Virus record (IMG/VR): IMGVR_UViG_3300027852_000083 | Span: 1 to 40,871 of that record | Source: a virus | Direction: 5' to 3' (one strand) | Length of the DNA stretch: 40,871 nt | Shown here: positions 2,596 to 39,687 of the stretch, one piece after another | Layout of the letters: each line of letters opens with the position of its first letter | Position numbering within the stretch: position 1 is the stretch's first letter | Position numbers and translations under genes: made by a program | The notes under the pieces: generated by a model | Told to the model about the DNA's origin: nothing | Seen by the model: only the letters and a program-made list of their open reading frames with translations | Databases searched by the model: none

Positions 2596-3117
2596 ATGTC
2601 GCTGGCTATAGATAAGTTTATTAATGAAGTTTTGCCTCGGCCTCAATTCCTTTTTAGATATGATATATTATTCCCTTCAGATATTAAAGGTTTAGATGAG
2701 GCAGAACTTGTTGGAAATAGAGTTATTGAAGTTACACCACCAATGACAGAGTTTACTACAGAGCCTACTCCAGTTGGTAATTCTAATTGGTATTATTCTC
2801 TCAATAATGATATCGGCAATATTAATATGAGAATACTTGAGGGCGAAGATGGTAAAACTTTTTCATTCTTCGCAAAGTGGCATGATTTAATGGTAACAAG
2901 GGAAGGTTATCATAGAGTACCAATAATGTATAAGAAACCAATCGAGATAATAGTATATGGTACCTTAGGTAAGGAAACAATGAGACTTAAATATATTGAT
3001 TTTTTCCCTATAACGCTAGATTATCCTGCTCTTACTAGTGAAAATAGCGATCCCTTAATCTACACTTTTGAATTTAGTGGCGACAGTTTGATATGCAAAA
3101 CTGCTTCCAGTGGATAA
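2596..3117 (+). CDS. Second tail-tube-like protein
   Basis: The 173-residue protein has the size and strand pattern of tube proteins: an N-terminal helix (IDKFINEVLPRPQFLFRYDI), a central GNINMRILEGEDGKTFSFF stretch, and a C-terminal DPLIYTFEFSGDSL strand in the place of the gp19 YDYF end. It follows the tube gene by 21 bases with a strong TTAGGAGGG site. T4-like phages carry tube-fold paralogues that start or end the tube, and a second tube or tube-terminator role is my inference. Sequence identity to the neighbouring tube protein is low, so this rests on length, position and local pattern. Confidence 0.72.
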   Translation: MSLAIDKFINEVLPRPQFLFRYDILFPSDIKGLDEAELVGNRVIEVTPPMTEFTTEPTPVGNSNWYYSLNNDIGNINMRILEGEDGKTFSFFAKWHDLMVTREGYHRVPIMYKKPIEIIVYGTLGKETMRLKYIDFFPITLDYPALTSENSDPLIYTFEFSGDSLICKTASSG

Positions 3118-3243
3118 TAAAATTAAAATAGTAAGTAAGTAGTTATTAAATATTGTAAGAATAAAAATAAAAATAAAAGTGGAGATAATCTTTATGAAGT
3201 TGTAGTTGTAAACCATAAATATTAAAGTATTAGGAGAAATGAA

Positions 3244-4056
3244 ATGAAGATGACAAACCAAAATTCGAATAAGGAAGTAGTAAAAGAACAAGGTACAGAA
3301 ATAAAAGACTATGCACGTATTTCTGAAGAACGCAAGAAAAAATGCCCACATTCATCGTCAATAAACCTTCCATCTAATGGGTTGATCCCAGACCCTTCCT
3401 ACCCAACAAGTTTGAATTACTCTGATTTAACAGTTAGAGATATGAAACGTTTGGTATCTGAGCCAGATACTACCTATTACAAGATTTTAATAGATGTTAT
3501 TAGTGAACTTATAGGTATGGATGCAATGGCTTTAACTGTTGATGATTTCGACTACACTGTCGTTTCTGTGAGAGTTAATTCGGTCTCACCTATTTGTTCC
3601 CTGATAGTTACCTGTGACAATTGTAATCAAGTATTTCCTTTTAAATTAGATCTAACAAAATTTAATATTGTTCATATGAAAGAGGATTTTAATGAACCAG
3701 TACGCATTAAAACGTCTAATGGTGAACTAGCATTGAAATTAATTAGAGTAGCAGATAATATTGAGGTTGACGAAAAAGGTGGGGACAATATTATTTTAGC
3801 TAAGTGTGCCGCAGCTATAGCCAACGGAAAATCTTTCGAAGAGCGATTATCTTTAGTTGAAGACACTTTAAGTGTAAAAGATGTAAATTTAATAAGAAGT
3901 TTTCTTTCTATTTATAGTAGTGGTGTAGATAGACTGAATAAAGCGTTTTGCCCTACCTGCAAGGAGGGGGTAGATTTTTGGTTGCCCTTTCGTTCAGACA
4001 TCTTATTTGGGATGGGGGACGACAACGAAGAATATTTTAGAAAAGCAATTTTATAG
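3244..4056 (+). CDS. gp26-like baseplate hub/tail assembly chaperone with a four-Cys zinc site
   Basis: The 270-residue protein sits immediately upstream of the tape measure gene, where myoviruses encode tail assembly chaperones or T4 gp26-type hub assembly proteins. The N-terminal half includes INLPSNGLIPDPSYP and LTVRDMKRLVS, typical of that family. It has two CxxC pairs, C124/C127 (TCDNCNQ) and C236/C239 (CPTCKEG), which probably bind one zinc ion across the inserted domain. The ORF ends at a TAG while a second ORF overlaps it in the +1 frame, so a frameshifted longer product is likely. The start is the ATG 7 bases after AGGAGA. Product class is moderately sure, exact T4 equivalent less so. 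Confidence 0.72.
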   Translation: MKMTNQNSNKEVVKEQGTEIKDYARISEERKKKCPHSSSINLPSNGLIPDPSYPTSLNYSDLTVRDMKRLVSEPDTTYYKILIDVISELIGMDAMALTVDDFDYTVVSVRVNSVSPICSLIVTCDNCNQVFPFKLDLTKFNIVHMKEDFNEPVRIKTSNGELALKLIRVADNIEVDEKGGDNIILAKCAAAIANGKSFEERLSLVEDTLSVKDVNLIRSFLSIYSSGVDRLNKAFCPTCKEGVDFWLPFRSDILFGMGDDNEEYFRKAIL

Positions 4057-4189
4057 TTGGTATGTGTTACAAGGAACGCCAGAAGTAACCGATAATATGG
4101 ATTTCAGAGAATTTATCTGGTTTTATGATAGGATGATAAAAGAAAAAAATGATGAACTTAAGAATAAAAATAAAAGATTAAGAAGGTGA
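4007..4189 (+). CDS. Out-of-frame C-terminal extension of the tail chaperone (probable frameshift product)
   Basis: This 60-codon frame overlaps the end of the gp26-like gene by 50 bases, in the +1 frame, and ends 19 bases before the tape measure gene. Its content, FYSWYVLQGTPE then DFREFIWFYDRMIKEK, looks like the C-terminal half of a tail assembly chaperone. The frame is open only from 3974. The first usable start is a TTG at 4007 with no ribosome site, and ATG 4097 gives only 30 residues. Expression by +1 (or -2) frameshifting from the upstream gene is therefore the best reading, as with the G/GT pair of lambda. A GGGGG run at 4014-4018 allows Gly-tRNA to re-pair one base forward. Confidence 0.6.
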   Translation: MGWGTTTKNILEKQFYSWYVLQGTPEVTDNMDFREFIWFYDRMIKEKNDELKNKNKRLRR

Positions 4190-4208
4190 AATTACGGGGA
4201 CAAATTAC

Positions 4209-6431
4209 ATGCCTAACGATGAAAATGAAATATCTAAATTAAGGAATGAATTAAAAAAAGCCGCAAAAATAAGAAATGAATTAAAAGAAGTTGCTAAATT
4301 GAGATCCGAGATTAAAAAGTATGCAAATATGGAAATTAGATCAGTTAAGACAGAATTGGGATTGAGGAAAAAAGCTATTAAAAATTCTGCTAAACGTTCC
4401 GCTGAACTGACATCAGTTGTAGTAGAAAGTGAACAACTTCAAAAGTCGTTAAAGGCTGAAAGGAAGAAGTTACACCTTTTAAAGAAGATTAGTTCTGGTG
4501 GGGATGTTTCGAATACTGAAGAACGCGCATTAATGAATATTGCTCGTAGGAATTTGCGTGCTTCTAGAAAGAATCTTCTTTCTGAGGAAAGAATGAGGGA
4601 AGGTGATATTAAAGCAGCAAAGGCTGTTTCTGCAGCAGCAGCTAAACAAGTTGTTACTCCCGTATCTGATGCTGGTACAGAAATAATGTCTGTGAAATCA
4701 GAAATGCGCGATATTTTTTCCGATATTAGTAGTAAATTATCAAGAACTTTAGATATTGTCCGAGAACAGTATGGTTCTACTGAGAATGCTTATAAAGAAA
4801 TGGCGCAAGTGAATGCTAGTTTGGTTAAAAGAATTGAAGAACTTCAGACATCTGCTAATGATTTATCTGTTGGCGCAAAAGCTATTTCTGAAAGTAGTGC
4901 TGAAGCATTTATTGAAGATTTGGGACAAACTAAAGCACAAACTAAAACATTTGATGAATCTGCTAATAAGAATAAAAAATTAGCAAAACAAGTTGATAAC
5001 TTGTCAGAATCAGCAAGTAATCATTTAGAAGATTTGGAAGAAAAGACTGGTAAATTGCATAAATTAGGAGATAAAGTTTCTGAGTCTAATCTGGCAGAAG
5101 AGATGATGACTGGTTTAGGTAGATCAGTTTTTGGAGATTTGTTTGATATACCTGCTCAAACTATAAAAGCACTCACAGGATCAGGTACTCTTTTAAAAGG
5201 CTTTTCCAAAGGAGCAAAATCTTTTTTAAAATTACCTAAGTTTTTATTTTTGTTTGGTGCTAAAACATATTCTAAAGTTAAAGCTATACCGGATAAATTA
5301 TCTGGTTTAACAGAGGAAACTAAAAAGGGTTTGGGTAAAACTTATAAAGGGATAAAGGCTCTTCCATCCAGTAAAAGTTTCCAATTACTCACAAAAAAGT
5401 CACAAGAAGTTTCTGATGATAAGTTGGGTGATGTTGTATCTGAATCAAGTTCAATGGTTCATGGAATAGAAGGTGTAAGAAAGGGAATTGCTTTTCTTGG
5501 TAGAAAACTATCTAGTAGTATGCGTGAAGTAGAGCGAGTAACAGAGAGAGGTTTTGGTAATGTAGTAGAAGGTGTTGAAGATGTTACTGATGATCTTAAA
5601 AAAATAAAAAAGCAACAGAAGAAGCAATTACAAGGTATTAGAGGTATAGAAGGTGGGGGTGGGATAGGAGGTCTATTTGAAACATGGTTTGTTGGCAGTA
5701 AAGCTAAAGGTCTTCTAGGCAAAGCTAAAGGATTATTAGGAAAAGGTAAAGGACTTCTTGGTAAAGGACTTCTTGGTGCAGGTGCACGTGGTGCAGGAGC
5801 AGCAGTAAGTGGTGTTGGTGCTGCTGGCGCAAGTTTAGCGTCAATAGCATCTGCAATTGCTCCAGCGCTTGGTGTAGCATTATCTGGCGCAGTTGGTGTT
5901 GCAATTGGTACTGCTATAGATAAAATATCTAAAAAGTTTTTAGGTAAAGAAGGTATTGGTGGTTGGCTCTATGAAAAGATACACGGTAAGGAAGAGGCAA
6001 AACCAAAAGGTAATATATCAGCAATGACTAATACTTGGAAAAAGAAGTTGTCAGCTGAAGCTTGGGAGGAATATGGATCAGCTATAAAGAAACAAACTAT
6101 TAATCCTGTAGATCTTTTGGGAAATGGTGCTATAGTTAAAGGTGAAGGTAATAAACTTTGGCTCCCAGATGAGCTACAAAATGAGACAAAAATTAAACCA
6201 GTTGTTGCTGAAGAAAAAATAATAGAAAGGATTAATCTTCCGATATCCGAAAGTGTTCCTTCCGTTGCAGCCCCACCTGTTCCTCCTACAACTCAGCCAA
6301 CACAACCACCTGTAGAGAGAGTAGTTCAACAACAAGTGAGTGGTAGAGAAAGTGTTGAAAGAAGTATAAGAAGTTTTCCTGTACTAGTAGACGATTTAGG
6401 TATGGTTATAGCAAACTCTGGTTTATTATAA
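4209..6431 (+). CDS. Tape measure protein
   Basis: The 740-residue protein begins with a Lys/Glu-rich coiled coil (about residues 1-150), continues with long helical heptad-like stretches to about 480, then a LLGKAKGLLGKGKGLLGKG repeat (about 500-520), and a Gly/Ala-rich hydrophobic zone (about 520-572) that could insert in the membrane. A Pro-rich segment (about 683-701) lies near the C-terminus. This layout, the length, and position after the chaperone pair and tube genes identify the ruler protein that sets tail length and is ejected with the DNA. No peptidase or lysozyme domain is evident. The ATG follows a GGGG-type ribosome site. Confidence 0.85.
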   Translation: MPNDENEISKLRNELKKAAKIRNELKEVAKLRSEIKKYANMEIRSVKTELGLRKKAIKNSAKRSAELTSVVVESEQLQKSLKAERKKLHLLKKISSGGDVSNTEERALMNIARRNLRASRKNLLSEERMREGDIKAAKAVSAAAAKQVVTPVSDAGTEIMSVKSEMRDIFSDISSKLSRTLDIVREQYGSTENAYKEMAQVNASLVKRIEELQTSANDLSVGAKAISESSAEAFIEDLGQTKAQTKTFDESANKNKKLAKQVDNLSESASNHLEDLEEKTGKLHKLGDKVSESNLAEEMMTGLGRSVFGDLFDIPAQTIKALTGSGTLLKGFSKGAKSFLKLPKFLFLFGAKTYSKVKAIPDKLSGLTEETKKGLGKTYKGIKALPSSKSFQLLTKKSQEVSDDKLGDVVSESSSMVHGIEGVRKGIAFLGRKLSSSMREVERVTERGFGNVVEGVEDVTDDLKKIKKQQKKQLQGIRGIEGGGGIGGLFETWFVGSKAKGLLGKAKGLLGKGKGLLGKGLLGAGARGAGAAVSGVGAAGASLASIASAIAPALGVALSGAVGVAIGTAIDKISKKFLGKEGIGGWLYEKIHGKEEAKPKGNISAMTNTWKKKLSAEAWEEYGSAIKKQTINPVDLLGNGAIVKGEGNKLWLPDELQNETKIKPVVAEEKIIERINLPISESVPSVAAPPVPPTTQPTQPPVERVVQQQVSGRESVERSIRSFPVLVDDLGMVIANSGLL

Positions 6432-13000: not shown

Positions 13001-13308
13001 CCTCTAGTTCCAGCTCTGTTAGTTCTAGTTCTTGTAGTAGCTCTAGGAGTTCCAGTAGTAGTTCTTTCTCAGAGGAAGCATGTCCTATGGATTGCGGTTG
13101 TGATTGTGCAGAGGAATGCGGTTGTGAGTGTCCAGAAGAGTGCGGTTGTGAGTGTCCCGAAGAGTGCGGTTGTGAGTGTCCCGAAGAGTGCGGTTGTGAG
13201 TGCCCAGAAGAGTGCGGTTGTGAATGTCCAGAAGAGATTTGGTGTGAATGTCCCGAAGAATCTTGTGGATGTGAATGCCCTGAAGAGAATTGTGGCCCAG
13301 AGGAATAG
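7072..13308 (+). CDS. Giant adhesin fused to a gp53-like baseplate wedge domain, with Cys-rich C-terminus
   Basis: The 2078 residues read as follows. 1-115: gp53-like wedge domain (YLWWIITLYNDVLDPFESK, then GETLLCP). 120-168: Ser linker. 168-757: Trp/Tyr-rich beta region I do not recognise, ending in a small Cys knot (CDCTFLENGRCVC). 758-962: Ser linker. 963-1120: discoidin-like domain, type A. 1122-1513: Ser linker of about 390 residues in SSSSX pentads. 1517-1563: short Trp/Gly module (DTGDLNYWSFGSPVDV). 1607-1745 and 1776-1915: two F5/8 type C (discoidin) domains beginning CP(Y/F)W. 1917-1999: Ser linker. 2001-2078: Cys-rich octapeptide repeats. The wedge domain would anchor it to the baseplate and the discoidin domains would bind surface glycans. 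The radical SAM gene begins 34 bases later. The GAGTGTAAAC before the ATG is a weak ribosome site. Confidence 0.85.
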   Translation: MGILDYSRIGNYNIIDVDKTNEFDFIDPALTELVKNITKIISYFTVTAKYDMKYWLISWEVYGTPYLWWIITLYNDVLDPFESKIGETLLCPDISNIDVKHLYSKCTPPIKPEYTIPEVSSSSSSSRSSSSVSVSSSSLSSSSSSKSSSSVSSSSSANSISSSSSSLGPEEFVKAEIVPGSSWHYKTFLYPEGIRSSPAFGVLNPLDNNEVRSVTYDDFTLFMGKRHTTWGFYTISLTYKAKVIEWFYNGSMFPDFEVNATSGINGFDIWKDDVDPDLYYIGILNESIRKHYLFSAKVIHYVDGDYVARANFVEEEDSRCLMEAGSWAEYEYPVLVGNNYVKTTEDLESSRIRCLGYGKGKAWWGGAQYTDKLNITYTNDNKFCRNIWFDDFIAKKYKKFDIGGSENYVSGVIKTHFDRVNNKLHIIVKSNFVSKVSTPSSSTESWIPRSPLGYNVVPSFSYFQTKGWETIPSRGSRWVFGIGYCEIGSILPPYECLAYYNTTVSYGTDKKYIPGYGRYPRPVNLPLRYGKVESIWKHNVTWNLVYRYWQQQATSEYDIICAYEYEYYPDYIYYSADIDGDIVQEGTYNGGVRKTECGYKIKLMGVTAANGIRPLRYYESFECSTPGYQGAEYHGSGSSPEFHYCSAYDHYGAVNNVKSNTLKEFKDWHFNCLKECGIDNTEIGYTKDSTPSGGSSIHIGPTVDNFYYAAVRRAILADLHPPPCAYSCDCTFLENGRCVCTENFGDTESTHFYQKALASSSSRSSTSVSSSSESISLSSSSISSSSSSSHSSSSLSFSSSSKSFSSSSKSFSSSSYSFSSSSSSYSSSSASIPSWWSLSSSSKSSSSSSSSISSSSVSKSSSSKSSSSKSSSSKSSSSQSSSSQSFSSSSSSISSSSKSSSSRSISSSSKSSSSKSSSSRSISSSSSSSSSNSSSSSSSSKSSSSSSVSSSSVSSSSFSSTSFPLYCGDFYTRMRQCRTSSNEADAWDAFDGIGIFQGSFWSCTIDNIPNPDGSCWMQWDFGVNKHITHISMQRRDEVDCDYGTTNFPKYCRVLGAHTSSMDNPIDLGSYETADIPFGEWGTWHRIVQAPFRFIRIEFYNSWISCINTYRIAVKEVCFRESISSSSKSFSSSSLSSSSFSSSSSSSSLSSSSKSSSSKSSSSKSFSSSSLSSSSSSSSSYSKSSSSRSLSSSSISFSSSSESYSSSSSSSSSYSSSSSSSSSLSFSSSSYSSSSSSLSFSSSSSSSLSSSSLSFSFSSSSLSSYSFSSSSSSSSSSSSSFSSSSSSFSSSSKSSSSKSSSSESSSSSSASWSSSSKSSSSKSSSSKSSSSSSSSKSSSSKSSSSSSFSFSSSSNSSSSSSLSSSSSSSSSSSYSSSSSSISSSSNSNSSSSSSESSSSFSNSSSSSSSSSYSKSSSSFSKSSSSSSNSSSSFSKSSSSSSSSSSSLSSSSSSSSISSSSESSSSSYSYSSSSSSSSVSFSSSSSSSYSSSSSSSSLSSSSSSSFQSLSSSSKSFESVMDTGDLNYWSFGSPVDVPFNKYTNIDTYGLLYWGFGKPLDYMWGSYSSSSKSSSSSSWSSNSSSSSSWSSSSSSSSSSLSSSSSSSYSSCPYWSPDKTLGQIAAASSEDGVYVASKAIDDDDFSEWRSTSDNNEWWRIDFGVPTSIGTVEILPGWHNFNSCVKDITIKGSNDAIGWTPLVSGQIPNASGWEVFRFGIASYRYFQIDVANKWWESQSWNISIREIRMRSCSSSSSSYSSSSSSYSSLSSSSVSSSSYSSCPFWSGDRTTDAVATASSGSHIDWSIDDNIYTPWIAASGVNEWLRIDFGIGNAYPINIVRILPYVDGGYARVKDILIKGSNDAVGWTNLISSRVPNSSNWTTFGFTNSTSYRYIQIDISNQWNPVLDNISILELEMLECYESSSSSSLSKSNSSSSSSLSNSSSSSSSVSSSSNSSSSTSSSSKSSSSSSLSLSSSSSSIGSSSSSSVSSSSCSSSRSSSSSSFSEEACPMDCGCDCAEECGCECPEECGCECPEECGCECPEECGCECPEECGCECPEEIWCECPEESCGCECPEENCGPEE
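9343..9956 (+). repeat. Poly-serine linker DNA repeat (second linker of the giant adhesin)
   Basis: About 205 codons are nearly all serine, built from the hexamer AGTTCN and a clear 15-bp unit (AGTTCGAGTTCTAAA and variants around 9649-9900) that encodes SSSSK pentads. Serine codons alternate between AGY and TCN. The frame is intact throughout. Confidence 0.9.
10435..11610 (+). repeat. Poly-serine linker DNA repeat (longest, about 390 codons)
   Basis: This is the longest low-complexity stretch in the window, again AGTTCT-type hexamers encoding SSSSX pentads in which X is K, F, L, Y, N, E, I or S. No stop or frame break occurs in about 1.2 kb, so selection maintains the frame. Short ORFs seen in other frames and on the minus strand here are shadows of the repeat. 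Confidence 0.9.
13093..13305 (+). repeat. 24-bp tandem repeats encoding CGCECPEE
   Basis: Units start at 13093 (CGCDCAEE), then five perfect-protein copies of CGCECPEE (13117-13236), then IWCECPEE, SCGCECPEE and NCGPEE. Synonymous third-base differences between copies show that the protein sequence has been kept while the DNA drifted. With the preceding CPMD segment this gives 25 Cys in the last 75 or so residues of the giant adhesin. Confidence 0.95.
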
Positions 13309-13342
13309 TGAAAAATATAAAATAAAGAGGGAAATGCTTGCT

Positions 13343-14488
13343 ATGAAATTAGGTTCTGTAGATTTAGAGATTACACTAAGATGCAATTTGAAATGTCCTT
13401 ATTGTTATTTACATCTCGATGGTACTAAAATAAGAGATATGTCCGATCGTACAATGCAGGCATGTATAGAGCTACTTAAAAAATATCCGAAGAATGGCGA
13501 TTATCCGCAGAGGATTACATTTTATGGAGGAGAACCTCTTTTAAAGTTTGATCTTATGAAGCGGTTTGTGTCTATGGCGGATGAAGCAAAATTGAATCTC
13601 AGATATACTGTAATGTCTAACGGAACCATAGTGACTCCTGAGATTGTAGAATTTTCAAAGAAGAGGAAGATGTACATACAGCGTAGTATTGATGGTTGTC
13701 CAAAAGTTATGGAAAAACTTAGACCTGGTGCCCTTTCTCTTTATGAGAAAGGGACAGAGTTGATAAAGGATACAAATAAAGGGACTAGGAGGATGACAAT
13801 TACTCCCGATACTGCCAAAGATTTATTTGAAGGAATTTTATACCTGTGGGAAAGTGGTTTCAGAAGAGGTTTCTCTCCCCAACCTAATTATGAGGTTGAT
13901 TGGGAGGAATCGCAGAAGCAAGATTTGATTAATAATATGCGGAAGATGGCAGACTTCTATGTTAAACAATTTAAAGATGGAAATCCTTTTTATTGGTACC
14001 AAGTATCTAGAGAAGCTGCTTGTAGATTTTCTAACTATGTAACTCAGACTGGGTGTGGCGCGGGAAAGCAATTATATTCTCTATCAGTAGACGGATATAT
14101 TTTCCTATGTCATAGGTTTACTGGAGAAGATATCAATGGGCAATTTTGTTATGGGCATATTGAGGATGTCCTTGAAGGAAAAGAAATTAAAGGTTTTGGT
14201 AATGATGTGATATCTGCTATTAAACGCGGAAGAAAGTGGAATGAGGAATGTCATTCTTGTATAGCTCAATATGGCTGCGAAAAAGGGTGCTTACATTCAA
14301 ATTATAAAGGTACTGGGAATCTTCTTAAGCCACCCGAGCTGTATTGCAGAGTTAAAAAAGAAGCTTCAAAGATAGTTACTTATATAGATTATGAGTTAAG
14401 AAATATAGATTCAGAGTGGTGGACCAAGAGAAATTTTCGTAGGGAAGCGAAAGCATACCTGGAAAAGAAGAAGAAATTAAACCAATAG
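13343..14488 (+). CDS. Radical SAM enzyme with SPASM domain
   Basis: The 381-residue product has the radical SAM cluster motif C14-x3-C18-x2-C21 (RCNLKCPYCY), a GGEP motif (TFYGGEPLLKF) and a C-terminal SPASM signature: Cys-x-Gly...DGYIFLC, then CHSCIAQYGCEKGC, then a final YC. SPASM enzymes carry auxiliary 4Fe-4S clusters and typically modify peptides or proteins (sulfatase maturases, ranthipeptide/SCIFF maturases). The start was set at ATG 13343, 11 bases after GAGGG; ATG 13334 is too close to that site. The open frame further upstream only reads the Cys repeat out of frame. The neighbour encodes a Cys/Glu-rich repeat, an obvious candidate substrate. It lies inside a tail operon, which is odd for a metabolic enzyme. 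Confidence 0.93.
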   Translation: MKLGSVDLEITLRCNLKCPYCYLHLDGTKIRDMSDRTMQACIELLKKYPKNGDYPQRITFYGGEPLLKFDLMKRFVSMADEAKLNLRYTVMSNGTIVTPEIVEFSKKRKMYIQRSIDGCPKVMEKLRPGALSLYEKGTELIKDTNKGTRRMTITPDTAKDLFEGILYLWESGFRRGFSPQPNYEVDWEESQKQDLINNMRKMADFYVKQFKDGNPFYWYQVSREAACRFSNYVTQTGCGAGKQLYSLSVDGYIFLCHRFTGEDINGQFCYGHIEDVLEGKEIKGFGNDVISAIKRGRKWNEECHSCIAQYGCEKGCLHSNYKGTGNLLKPPELYCRVKKEASKIVTYIDYELRNIDSEWWTKRNFRREAKAYLEKKKKLNQ

Positions 14489-35422: not shown

Positions 35423-36169
35423 ATGAAAGATGCCATAATATTGTTAGAAGATAAAGGAGAATTTGTTTTAGCTAAAGAACTTGGAGATGTAGTTGGTGAT
35501 GCTTGGGGTGAAACAGTGAAAATGATGGAAGAAGCTTTGCGTGAAGTAGATTCGATTATAAAGAATCGAATTAAGAGAAGCAAACTTGGTGTAGCTTCCT
35601 ACACTGCAAAGGGTCTAACTAGGAGATTTACTGGAACTTTTGATGGAGAGAGATTTAGTGGTACAATAACGCCTCTCGACGGTGCTAAAGGAAGGATGGG
35701 ATGGGTACGAACTAGTGTAATGTTTCCTGAGGTATCATTTAAGGAAAAGAAGAAGAGAGAGAAATTTGAAGGTAGCTGGTATAAGCTACTTAGAAAATTT
35801 ATGGAGCAAGAGGGGATCCAAGAGTTTAATATTGACAAAAAAGATTTCCTGTTTCAGCTTCCGTCTTTTGCTGGAAAAGTAGGAGAACTTGAACCCGAAA
35901 CAGGTATAAAGAAGAAATCACTCCCTCCAGAGGTGAAGAAAGTATTAAACAAGTACAAGCCAGAAATTAGAAAAAAAGGCTGGGTACAGATAAGATTTGG
36001 CAAGGAATTTATCGAGAAGTCCTATATAGTATCTAAAAAACCAGAGTTTGCTGACCAGAGATTAGCAAATAGAAAGGGTTATCCAGAAGACTATGAAATG
36101 GCTAGTAGTATTCCATACTATGATCCGGAAAAGAAGCTATTCTGGAGATTTACTGGATCCTTCGATTAA
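35423..36169 (+). CDS. Protein with N-terminal GEF-tag module and unknown body
   Basis: The 248-residue product starts MKDAIILLEDKGEFVLAKEL, the clearest copy of the recurrent module. The body is basic and beta-rich (RRFTGTFDGERFSGTITPLD, then KAGKVGELEPE-like segments), with a closing FWRFTGSFD that echoes the earlier RRFTGTFDG, perhaps an internal repeat of a small beta unit. I do not recognise a family. I chose ATG 35423, 9 bases after AGGGAG; ATG 35414 abuts that site. It sits between the helicase and lysis genes. Confidence 0.75.
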   Translation: MKDAIILLEDKGEFVLAKELGDVVGDAWGETVKMMEEALREVDSIIKNRIKRSKLGVASYTAKGLTRRFTGTFDGERFSGTITPLDGAKGRMGWVRTSVMFPEVSFKEKKKREKFEGSWYKLLRKFMEQEGIQEFNIDKKDFLFQLPSFAGKVGELEPETGIKKKSLPPEVKKVLNKYKPEIRKKGWVQIRFGKEFIEKSYIVSKKPEFADQRLANRKGYPEDYEMASSIPYYDPEKKLFWRFTGSFD

Positions 36170-36231: not shown

Positions 36232-36696
36232 ATGGAAATAACAGCATTTGACCTAGCTAAAAAATTTGTAGGTATGAAAGAAGTTGCAGGTGAAGTAGAT
36301 AATCCTCAGATAATGGCGATGCTTAAGTTAGATGCTAGTTGGCCTGAGCATGATGAAGTACCCTGGTGCTCTGCCCTTGTAAACTATATTTGCTGGTTAT
36401 TACGTTTGCCGAGATCGAAGAGTTTGAGAGCAAGGAGTTGGTTAAGGATTGGTGTTCCTATTCCTGCCGACCAAGCTGTTCCTGGTAATGATGTTGTTAT
36501 ACTTGAGAGAGGGAAAGGGGTTCAACCTGGTCCGGAAGTTATAAAAGCTCCTGGTCATGTAGGTTTTTTTGCAGGTTATCAAATACTAGATAATGAGGAG
36601 ACCCTTGTCCGGATATTAGGAGGAAACCAAGGTAATGAGGTAGATATAGATGTGTATCCGGTTTGTCGGATTTTAGGTATTAGGAGGTTAACTTGA
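36232..36696 (+). CDS. CHAP/NlpC-P60-like peptidoglycan hydrolase (TIGR02594-type)
   Basis: The 154-residue product has a papain-like hydrolase triad in order: C46 in EVPWCSALVNYICW, H109 in APGHVGFFAGY, and N132 in ILGGNQGNEVDI. The PWCS start, GHVG and GGNQ blocks are the signature of small cell-wall amidases/endopeptidases of the TIGR02594 type found in phages. It is probably an endolysin. There is no signal peptide and no binding domain. A very strong AAAGGAGG site precedes the ATG. Small and membrane-protein genes follow. Confidence 0.85.
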   Translation: MEITAFDLAKKFVGMKEVAGEVDNPQIMAMLKLDASWPEHDEVPWCSALVNYICWLLRLPRSKSLRARSWLRIGVPIPADQAVPGNDVVILERGKGVQPGPEVIKAPGHVGFFAGYQILDNEETLVRILGGNQGNEVDIDVYPVCRILGIRRLT

Positions 36697-37198: not shown

Positions 37199-37221
37199 CT
37201 TCTAAATAAAGGAGGATGGTC

Positions 37222-37545
37222 ATGAAAGTGCAAGTAGTGGGTTATGGAGCAACTAAGCATGATTGGTGGGTTGGTATTTCTATGCTTAACTTTTCTCCAG
37301 ATGTAAACCAGGTGAGTATAAAGATTTTTGATCCGAGTGGTATTAAGAGAAAAGATCATAGTTTGGAATTTCAACCATTCCAGCAGATAGTTCTTGGGGA
37401 CAAGGAAGACTTTATAGTGAATTCTAGACAGTGGGTAATGATTGAAGGTCCTGATTCATTAATAGTGGTACCTTACCAAGGTCGTGGTACTGGTGGTTTT
37501 GGAATTCTTCCTGTTAAGGAGGCCGAATATTTGGGGGGGCTGTAG
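37222..37545 (+). CDS. Small beta-domain protein; zero-frame product of a probable -1 frameshift gene
   Basis: The 107-residue product is a beta-rich domain (VVGYGATKHDWWVGISMLNF, then VNQVSIKIFDPSGIKRKD, then QWVMIEGPDSLIVVPYQGRG) without recognised family. It ends in EAEYLGGL and TAG. The codons GGG GGG before the stop form a perfect slippery heptamer, so a fraction of ribosomes could continue into the peptidase frame, making this the N-terminal domain of a 319-residue fusion. The start is ATG 37222, 6 bases after GGAGG; ATG 37216 overlaps the site. A cell-wall-targeting role for the domain is inference. Confidence 0.75.
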   Translation: MKVQVVGYGATKHDWWVGISMLNFSPDVNQVSIKIFDPSGIKRKDHSLEFQPFQQIVLGDKEDFIVNSRQWVMIEGPDSLIVVPYQGRGTGGFGILPVKEAEYLGGL

Positions 37546-37577
37546 GCCCCATAGTAGGTATTTGGGGACTATGGGGC
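37516..37577 (+). promoter_or_regulatory. Programmed -1 ribosomal frameshift signal
   Basis: In order: an SD-like AAGGAGG (37516-37522), 10 bases, the heptamer G_GGG_GGG (37533-37539) in phase with codons TTG GGG GGG, a 6-base spacer CTGTAG holding the zero-frame stop, then a perfect 9-bp stem GCCCCATAG (37546-37554) with CTATGGGGC (37569-37577) and a 14-base loop. The layout matches the dnaX-type cassette. A homopolymer indel is the main alternative. Confidence 0.75.
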
Positions 37578-38180
37578 AACGGGATAGGTCCGTGGCAGAC
37601 ACCATATTGGCATTATGTGGGGAAATGCCCTGGGTTACTGAAGCCACTTTATATATGTATTGATTTGCTTGCAAGATCAATTTATTATGATTTTCCTGAC
37701 AGGCAATGTAGGAAGTTAGGAATAATGGATTGCACACCAACGAATTCCTATGAGGATTGTGATGGTCACCCATTAGGTTCACATAGAGGTGGTTGTAGTG
37801 TGGACACTGGTTATTATACATATGGTATTACTAATATAACCCAGTCTAGCAGAGTACCAGAGTTGGTCACACACTTGTGGAAAAATGGTGGGTTTGATGA
37901 ACAGCTATTTGACTGGGAAAGGAATTATGTCTTTTTCACTAGGCTGAAAGGGATATTGCCAAAAGCTGTTATCAGGATGGATAAAAGAATTAGTTATGAC
38001 TATATGGAAGGCAAAATTAGAGAAAAGTATGGGCTTGGTGCGTGGAATTCCTGGTGGAAGATAATTACACATGACTCTCCCGGACAATGTAGACACCATA
38101 CACATGTCCATGTAACTTTGGAGAGACCTGAATACATAGATTGGAAATATAATATTCGACAATGGAGAAAAGCTGCATGA
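37539..38180 (+). CDS. M15/M74-like peptidase, -1 frame extension
   Basis: Read in the -1 frame after the slip, the extension is 213 residues. It begins with a Gly/Trp-rich linker (AVGPIVGIWGLWGNGIGPWQ), then the catalytic region: GHPLGSHRGGCSVDTGYYT, matching the HxxxGxxxD zinc and substrate motif of M15/M74 murein endopeptidases, and HTHVHV, which supplies the second zinc His. The frame has no ATG/GTG start with a ribosome site: it opens after TAA 37515, and only GTG 37617 is usable, unsupported and losing the Trp-rich linker. Frameshift fusion to the beta-domain protein is therefore preferred. It ends ATGA, overlapping a dead gene start. Confidence 0.75.
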   Translation, partial: AVGPIVGIWGLWGNGIGPWQTPYWHYVGKCPGLLKPLYICIDLLARSIYYDFPDRQCRKLGIMDCTPTNSYEDCDGHPLGSHRGGCSVDTGYYTYGITNITQSSRVPELVTHLWKNGGFDEQLFDWERNYVFFTRLKGILPKAVIRMDKRISYDYMEGKIREKYGLGAWNSWWKIITHDSPGQCRHHTHVHVTLERPEYIDWKYNIRQWRKAA

Positions 38181-38228
38181 TACTTCACTACAAAGCATAG
38201 AGAGCAAATAATTATTTAGATAATAAAT
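38175..38228 (+). repeat. 54-bp imperfect direct repeat, copy 1
   Basis: It matches 38984-39037 at 49 of 54 bases. The second copy is the start of the transglutaminase-like gene; this copy is its degraded twin. Confidence 0.9.
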
Positions 38229-38932: not shown

Positions 38933-38989
38933 ATGAAAATCATTATAGATGAAATACTAAGTTCTATAGTTGCGAGATTGATGGCATGA
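38933..38989 (+). CDS. 18-residue leader ORF coupled to the next gene
   Basis: ATG 38933, after GGGGTGAG, opens MKIIIDEILSSIVARLMA and ends at TGA 38987, which overlaps the ATG of the transglutaminase-like gene as ATGA. The peptidase has the same ATGA overlap at the other repeat copy. It may be a coupling leader or a remnant; the peptide alone is unlikely to be functional. Confidence 0.35.
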   Translation: MKIIIDEILSSIVARLMA

Positions 38990-39037
38990 TACTTCACTAC
39001 AAATCATGGAGAGCAAAGAATTATTGGGATAATAAAT
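38984..39037 (+). repeat. 54-bp imperfect direct repeat, copy 2
   Basis: It forms the start of the intact transglutaminase-like gene and matches 38175-38228 at 49 of 54 bases. Confidence 0.9.
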
Positions 39038-39687
39038 ACCCTAAGAAAATAATTCATTACCTTGGACGCACGCTCGCCAATAAACCTACTGCTCGTATTC
39101 CTGTTCCGGTGCAGGTTTTTGTAACACCGTATGACTCTGTTATCCGGAGGGATATAGAAGATAATAACTTGCAGGTTCCTGATCCATACAAGATTAATGA
39201 GCATGTCATTAAGATCTTTAGACATACCCGTAATAAACCTCTTAATCCTTATCACTACGAGCATGACAACCACCAGTTCAACATAGATGAGCTCTGGTTG
39301 TTTCCCTACGAGTTAAGGCATGCAGGTAAAGGAGATTGTGATGACTGGGGAGCTGAACTTGCGAGTTATTATATTGCTGCTGGAATTCCACGATGGCGAG
39401 TAAGAGTGGTAGTAGGAACTTGTAGATTAGGTGGTCATTTTACTGTCTATGTCTTGGCAGACGACTTTAAGACCTGGTATCATACAAATAGTACTGATAG
39501 TCAGGTACGTGTTGATAATCTAACCCAACTGCCCAAGACTGATGCTCATAATGATGATTTTGGTATTACCAAAGTTTGGTTTTCATTTAATGATCACTGG
39601 GCCTGGCACGGTTTTAATCCTGAAATAACTGAAGAAATGAAGAAATGGGATGTAGAAGTTCAAGAAGAAGAATTAAAGAAAGCATAG
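38986..39687 (+). CDS. Transglutaminase-like cysteine protein
   Basis: The 233-residue product carries a transglutaminase-like catalytic set: C118 in GKGDCDDWGAELASYYIAAG, H151 in RLGGHFTVYVLADD, and D171 (or N168) in WYHTNSTDSQV. The GDCDDW...A.YY..AGI pattern is typical of bacterial transglutaminase-like cysteine peptidases. It could act on peptidoglycan, on host proteins, or as an amide-crosslinking enzyme; the sequence does not decide. The N-terminus has aromatic and basic residues (WRAKNYWDNKYPKKIIHY). It starts in an ATGA overlap with the leader ORF and has a decayed duplicate of its start upstream. Confidence 0.8.
   Translation: MILHYKSWRAKNYWDNKYPKKIIHYLGRTLANKPTARIPVPVQVFVTPYDSVIRRDIEDNNLQVPDPYKINEHVIKIFRHTRNKPLNPYHYEHDNHQFNIDELWLFPYELRHAGKGDCDDWGAELASYYIAAGIPRWRVRVVVGTCRLGGHFTVYVLADDFKTWYHTNSTDSQVRVDNLTQLPKTDAHNDDFGITKVWFSFNDHWAWHGFNPEITEEMKKWDVEVQEEELKKA

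Follow-up and report, generated by a model that had tools for sequence, protein, structure and literature searches.

The locus between 37222 and 38180 of the window, the whole 40,871-base IMG/VR virus record that was analysed (G+C 34 %), would be one gene encoding one protein. This protein would comprise an Ig-like beta domain, a Gly/Trp-rich linker and a LAS-type (M15/M74-like) peptidase, and may serve as a secondary enzyme of the phage lytic module. Its reading frame is interrupted at a run of seven Gs. With slightly better than even confidence, we attribute this interruption to the gain or loss of one base in the G run, caused by mutation or, less likely, by an assembly error, and perhaps leakily rescued. 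Such an accident was favoured over a translation switch because the frame that encodes this protein is unbroken in a distant relative, L036.

Organisation of the split locus

The phage is myovirus-like, with genes for tail sheath, tube, baseplate wedge and a helicase in the window. A radical SAM protein (13304-14488) is encoded amid the structural genes of the tail module. The split gene and its surroundings contain the following features:

36232 to 36696, + strand: TIGR02594-family / tail-lysozyme-like peptidoglycan hydrolase, neighbour of the split gene; its homologue adjoins the fused gene in L036
36839 to 37198, + strand: small membrane protein with two hydrophobic segments (phrog_944), immediately upstream of the split gene
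37222 to 37545, + strand: upstream frame with the 107-aa putative Ig/FnIII-like beta domain and the frame end, from ATG 37222 to TAG 37543-37545
37516 to 37522, + strand: AAGGAGG, SD-like, 10 nt 5' of the G heptamer and 4 nt before the ATA (37527) of the -1 frame
37530 to 37539, + strand: TTTGGGGGGG, whose T run is in phase from 37530; contains two in-phase heptamers that overlap, T_TTG_GGG (37530-37536) and G_GGG_GGG (37533-37539)
37540 to 37545, + strand: spacer CTGTAG, which holds the stop codon of the upstream frame
37546 to 37577, + strand: stem-loop with a perfect 10-bp stem, GCCCCATAGT (37546-37555) / ACTATGGGGC (37568-37577), and a 12-nt loop
37539 to 38180, + strand: -1 frame with the Gly/Trp-rich linker and the LAS-type metallopeptidase-like domain, 213 aa; motifs GHPLGSHRGGCSVDTGYYT ... 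HHTHVHV
37617 to 37619, + strand: GTG without an SD; apart from it, the -1 frame has no ATG, GTG or TTG ahead of the catalytic part

The upstream frame was taken to start at ATG 37222, which is preceded by the SD AAAGGAGG at 37208-37214, because the alternative ATG 37216 is too near this SD. With this start, the product sizes of 107 and 319 aa given in the first-pass annotation are correct. The junction reads GTT AAG GAG GCC GAA TAT TTG GGG GGG CTG TAG, followed by the stem, and the G run at 37533-37539 is decoded as TTG GGG GGG in the upstream frame. This run is the longest G run of the window and the sole homopolymer of at least six bases within the fused gene.

The first-pass annotation had described a frameshift cassette at this junction, and its elements are in place: G_GGG_GGG lies in the phase of the upstream frame, TAG is inside the 6-base spacer and AAGGAGG precedes the heptamer by 10 bases. 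The perfect stem was also found where it had been placed, but its length is 10 bp instead of the 9 bp given. T_TTG_GGG (37530-37536) is a second in-phase heptamer that had not been mentioned. Both heptamers follow the X_XXZ_ZZN pattern of -1 programmed frameshifting of the dnaX/IS3 type. Stimulators of such sites are a hairpin 4-10 nt downstream and/or an SD-like motif 6-17 nt upstream; here, the stem follows at 6 nt and AAGGAGG precedes at 10 nt. By itself, the 10-bp stem has an energy of about -17.3 kcal/mol. A role of the stem as a terminator was ruled out, since no T run follows it.

From 37539, the -1 frame is open for 213 codons and ends with TGA 38180. At the junction, the frame favoured by codon usage changes from that of the beta domain to the -1 frame. 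For the linker (37539-37616), the score is +4.7 bits in this frame and -39 and -2.8 in the two others. The frame break coincides exactly with the end of the beta domain. The statement that the peptidase frame lacks a supported start was upheld, with GTG 37617 as the only conventional candidate; the residues shared with L036 (W, P, Y) already begin 5' of this codon.

Right behind the peptidase stop, the window contains a 54-bp repeat, of which the copies at 38175-38228 and 38984-39037 are identical at 49 of 54 positions. The first is a decayed copy, with an in-frame stop, of the start of a transglutaminase-like gene (38986-39687), and the two are separated by 0.8 kb with two small ORFs. The arrangement looks like an insertion with partial duplication. 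For the transglutaminase-like protein, no match was found among phage records; a distant relative at 27 % is encoded at 4013-4657 of L019, a 125-kb IMG/VR contig that also carries DNA polymerase and primase-like genes.

Predicted domains

The single-sequence AlphaFold model of the beta domain is all-beta with a mean pLDDT of 72.6. Foldseek returned no significant match for this model, and VIA-align placed it among many tied Ig/FnIII-like sandwiches with Z scores of 7.4-8.1, which indicate a common fold only. The model points, with moderate confidence, to an Ig/FnIII-like sandwich, for which a binding role may be assumed.

The peptidase contains the ligand pattern of LAS (M15/M74) enzymes, H-x6-D followed by a C-terminal H-x-H (GSHRGGCSVD, HHTHVHV), which is kept in L036. 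No credible sequence match to the peptidase was found in Pfam, PHROGs, NCBIfam or the PDB, and the M74 profile gave no signal. An hhalign comparison with M15_3 lysins covered 23 columns at 26 % probability and is partly circular, since these loci were gathered by the motif itself. The AlphaFold model of the peptidase, built without an alignment, reached a pLDDT of 31. A scan with the degenerate pattern H..G..VD.GYY yielded M15_3-type lysins without the beta domain and chance matches only. The gene probably codes for a cell-wall-cutting enzyme, and the putative peptidase is presumably active. A lytic role is supported by the nearby TIGR02594-type lysozyme in both phages and by a spanin-like gene in L036.

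A relative with an unbroken frame

Searches with the peptidase, the beta domain, the catalytic core or the helicase as queries revealed no close relatives among the related loci. Likewise, tblastn against phage records found no relative of the parts of the split gene, and the exact DNA pattern with variable G-run length had no match among the records searched, from which close neighbours of the window may be missing. Using the neighbouring lysozyme as a query led to 20 IMG/VR loci, one of which carries both parts. This is L036 (IMGVR_UViG_3300010413_000065, gene at 3015-3998 of the locus), with matches to the beta domain (E 3e-4) and the peptidase (E 1e-13). Whole records of the remaining loci found with the lysozyme contained no further copy of the fused gene. 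We regard a plasmid match to P0003 (phospholipase D / intergenic region, E 1e-3) as spurious.

The L036 protein consists of a signal peptide, the beta domain, a 20-residue linker and the peptidase in one unbroken 327-aa frame. The same domain order in a single frame agrees with the earlier proposal that the beta domain belongs to one protein with the linker and the peptidase. The beta domains share 26 % identity, with M aligned to M, and the peptidases 30-35 %, with every candidate metal ligand kept. The alignment retains GHPxGSHxG..SVDxxYYT and HHxHxH, and a TIGR02594-type lysozyme is encoded nearby in both cases. The junction falls between EAExL and a PY motif, and the linker has 20-23 residues in both proteins. 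Unlike the split gene, L036 has a continuous frame with a signal peptide, and at the corresponding point it has no in-phase heptamer, no G run and no strong stem. Conservation of stem and heptamer in related phages, which had been suggested as a check, was thus not seen in the sole relative found.

Since L036 encodes both parts in one frame, the fusion is a genuine protein, and the frameshift is not conserved in this sole relative, which is at about 30 % identity. On present evidence from these two sequences, the fused protein would be the shared form and the split would be special to the window. The L036 fused protein has no credible match in Pfam or PHROGs either, and a family of beta-domain/peptidase lysins without profile matches is apparently undescribed. 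In L036, the region 3015-5405 forms a compact lysis cassette of the signal-peptide beta-peptidase, the TIGR02594 lysozyme and an Rz-like spanin.

Significance of the junction signals

Shuffled versions of the window are expected to contain about 1.3 runs of seven Gs each. The fold of 37540-37600 has a z-score of -2.7, with 1 of 200 shuffles equally good, and a 10-bp Watson-Crick stem at suitable spacing stands behind 0.06-0.07 % of the window positions. Synonymous versions were also generated, in which the amino acids of the G/W-rich peptide were fixed and the codons were redrawn from the usage of the window or of the gene. A stem of 10 Watson-Crick pairs occurred in 1.7 % (window codon usage) or 0.4 % (the gene's own usage) of these versions, a higher chance than across the window because the encoded G/W-rich peptide itself favours such a stem. 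The energy of the segment was equal or better in 15 of 1000 synonymous versions.

In 49 % of the synonymous versions, an SD-like motif lay within range, and 7.5 % contained AAGGAGG itself. Internal GGAGG/AGGAG motifs are frequent across the window, and 22 of its 96 in-phase heptamers have an SD-like motif upstream. By its downstream hairpin, the site ranks first among these 96 heptamers, with -22.7 kcal/mol, a figure that takes in a second small hairpin, versus -13.8 kcal/mol for the next. The joint chance of the stem and the SD-like motif, as the product of the separate figures and assuming independence, is about 0.2-1 % given the peptide. The junction signals exceed chance, and this excess is real but moderate once the encoded protein is counted. 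Within the ORFs of the window, the frame is intact at about 16 further homopolymers of 6-8 bases, so a systematic homopolymer problem of the assembly is unlikely.

Weighing the explanations

If the split is an accident, the frame would have been broken where the G run encodes the Gly-Gly start of the linker, most likely by a real slippage mutation in the phage and less likely by an assembly error. For most ribosomes, translation would end at TAG 37543 with the 107-aa beta domain as the product, and some full-length enzyme could still be made via unprogrammed slippage on the G run. We infer a recent base change and some residual slippage; the intact candidate catalytic residues and the 213 open codons fit a recent break. 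In favour of an accident, homopolymers of six or more bases occur in the gene at the break only, and the decayed 54-bp copy behind the peptidase stop, which suggests recent rearrangement and decay at this spot, was counted on the same side. So was a survey of frame transitions in prokaryotes that reported 4010 pseudogene clusters versus 146 recoding clusters (PMC3711429). In another viral gene, indels are known to arise at a run of 7 Gs, and frameshifting compensates for them at a very low level (review PMC5009743). Against an accident stand the stem and the SD-like motif at the expected places with their low joint chance, the top rank of the hairpin and the intact frames at the other runs. 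The position of the break, precisely where the beta domain ends, and the dependence on a single relative at about 30 % identity also count against it. The weights given to accident and programming are judgements and not computed posteriors.

Programmed -1 ribosomal frameshifting, by which a slip on T_TTG_GGG / G_GGG_GGG would produce the 319-aa fusion, is possible but doubtful. Ribosomes at TAT TTG GGG GGG would be held by contact of AAGGAGG with the anti-SD and by the 10-bp stem, and would slip back one base. Non-shifting ribosomes would stop two codons on, leaving free beta domain in excess and few enzyme molecules, a result that phages of Gram-positive hosts achieve through internal starts. 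The dnaX-like layout of SD-like motif, heptamer, stop-bearing 6-nt spacer and strong stem argues for such a switch, as do the hairpin energy, which is unmatched in the window, and a shift point exactly between the domains with a -1-frame linker of about the same length as that of L036. The lack of a usable start for the peptidase and the intact homopolymers of other ORFs point in the same direction. However, the cassette is absent from L036, the heptamer consists of G only, and, given the peptide, chance accounts for the stem in 0.4-1.7 % and for the SD in up to 49 % of cases. Lists of efficient E. coli heptamers do not include G_GGG_GGG, GGN codons shift poorly in this organism, which may not be the host, and such motifs were not reported as common in IS elements (PMC4066793). 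For a G-only heptamer outside these efficient motifs, with stimulators that are moderately improbable given the peptide, the label of a textbook cassette in the first-pass annotation is too strong. The fixed ratio of two products proposed there is conjectural. A shade more doubtful is the fuller proposal of a lytic enzyme with an N-terminal accessory domain, for which a programmed -1 frameshift on TTTGGGGGGG would yield the free beta domain in most cases and the fusion in a minority.

Improbable, in our view, is unprogrammed slippage, either transcriptional on the G run or as reversible phase variation of the run length, by which a minority of the messages or genomes would be in frame. Compared with the runs usually reported for transcriptional slippage or phase variation, seven Gs are short, which counts against this explanation, and the stem and the SD would be superfluous under it. 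It is favoured by the G run being the longest of the window and the sole long run of the gene, and by the precedent of tssM, an interrupted gene in which transcriptional slippage at 11 A leads to two needed products (PMC4256274). Marginally less probable still is the synthesis of two separate proteins, with translation of the peptidase beginning either from GTG 37617 or from AUA (37527), a non-standard start codon that follows AAGGAGG. AAGGAGG is located 4 nt 5' of the ATA in the -1 frame, and for E. coli reporters with G motifs, a low level of initiation at AUA after a G-rich SD has been put forward (PMC4066793). However, AUA starts are weak and rare, GTG 37617 has no SD and would drop residues common to L036, and L036 makes one fused polypeptide.

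Comparison with known systems

The locus shares the upstream SD-like motif, the heptamer, the short spacer and the stem-loop with dnaX-type -1 cassettes. These use A_AAA_AAG, whereas the putative cassette described here has T_TTG_GGG/G_GGG_GGG. If recoding is true, the locus would also resemble the two-polypeptide endolysins Lys170, LysIME-EF1, CTP1L and CD27L (PMC9430671, PMC4777826, PMC7098653), in which one gene gives a full-length enzyme and a free accessory domain. In those endolysins, the binding domain is C-terminal and translation from an internal start is used, whereas the extra domain here is N-terminal and a frameshift would be needed. The short product would come from the stop of the upstream frame and not from an internal in-frame start. 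Enzyme and free accessory domain from one gene are known from endolysins with internal starts (PMC9430671), not by frameshift. The lysin of Lactobacillus phage Sabazios is likewise split into two overlapping frames and has relatives in one frame. Its authors considered slippage or mutation and found no slippery sequence (PMC7260188), unlike in the window, where one is present.

The earlier remark that no standard example of frameshifting in lytic enzyme genes was known is in line with our literature search, which turned up no lysin gene with a demonstrated frameshift. If programmed, the junction would be the first supported recoding signal found in this search for a phage lytic-enzyme gene, and a second route to an enzyme and a free accessory domain from a single gene, with a frameshift replacing internal starts. 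If not programmed, the locus still reveals the apparently undescribed beta-domain/peptidase lysin family. It would also illustrate that a homopolymer slip in a Gly-rich linker can mimic a recoding cassette, which calls for caution in mining metagenomic phages for frameshifts.

Other observations in the window

Three different small proteins encoded at 35444, 38313 and 38660 (+ strand) share a short N-terminal motif, L(E/D)(D/N)xGxFxxA(K/R), for example LEDKGEFVLAKEL. At the end of the contig (40805-40871), an inverted repeat, TCTTACTAAG ... CTTAGTAAGA, occurs together with a truncated uracil-DNA-glycosylase-like frame, which is possibly an assembly end effect.
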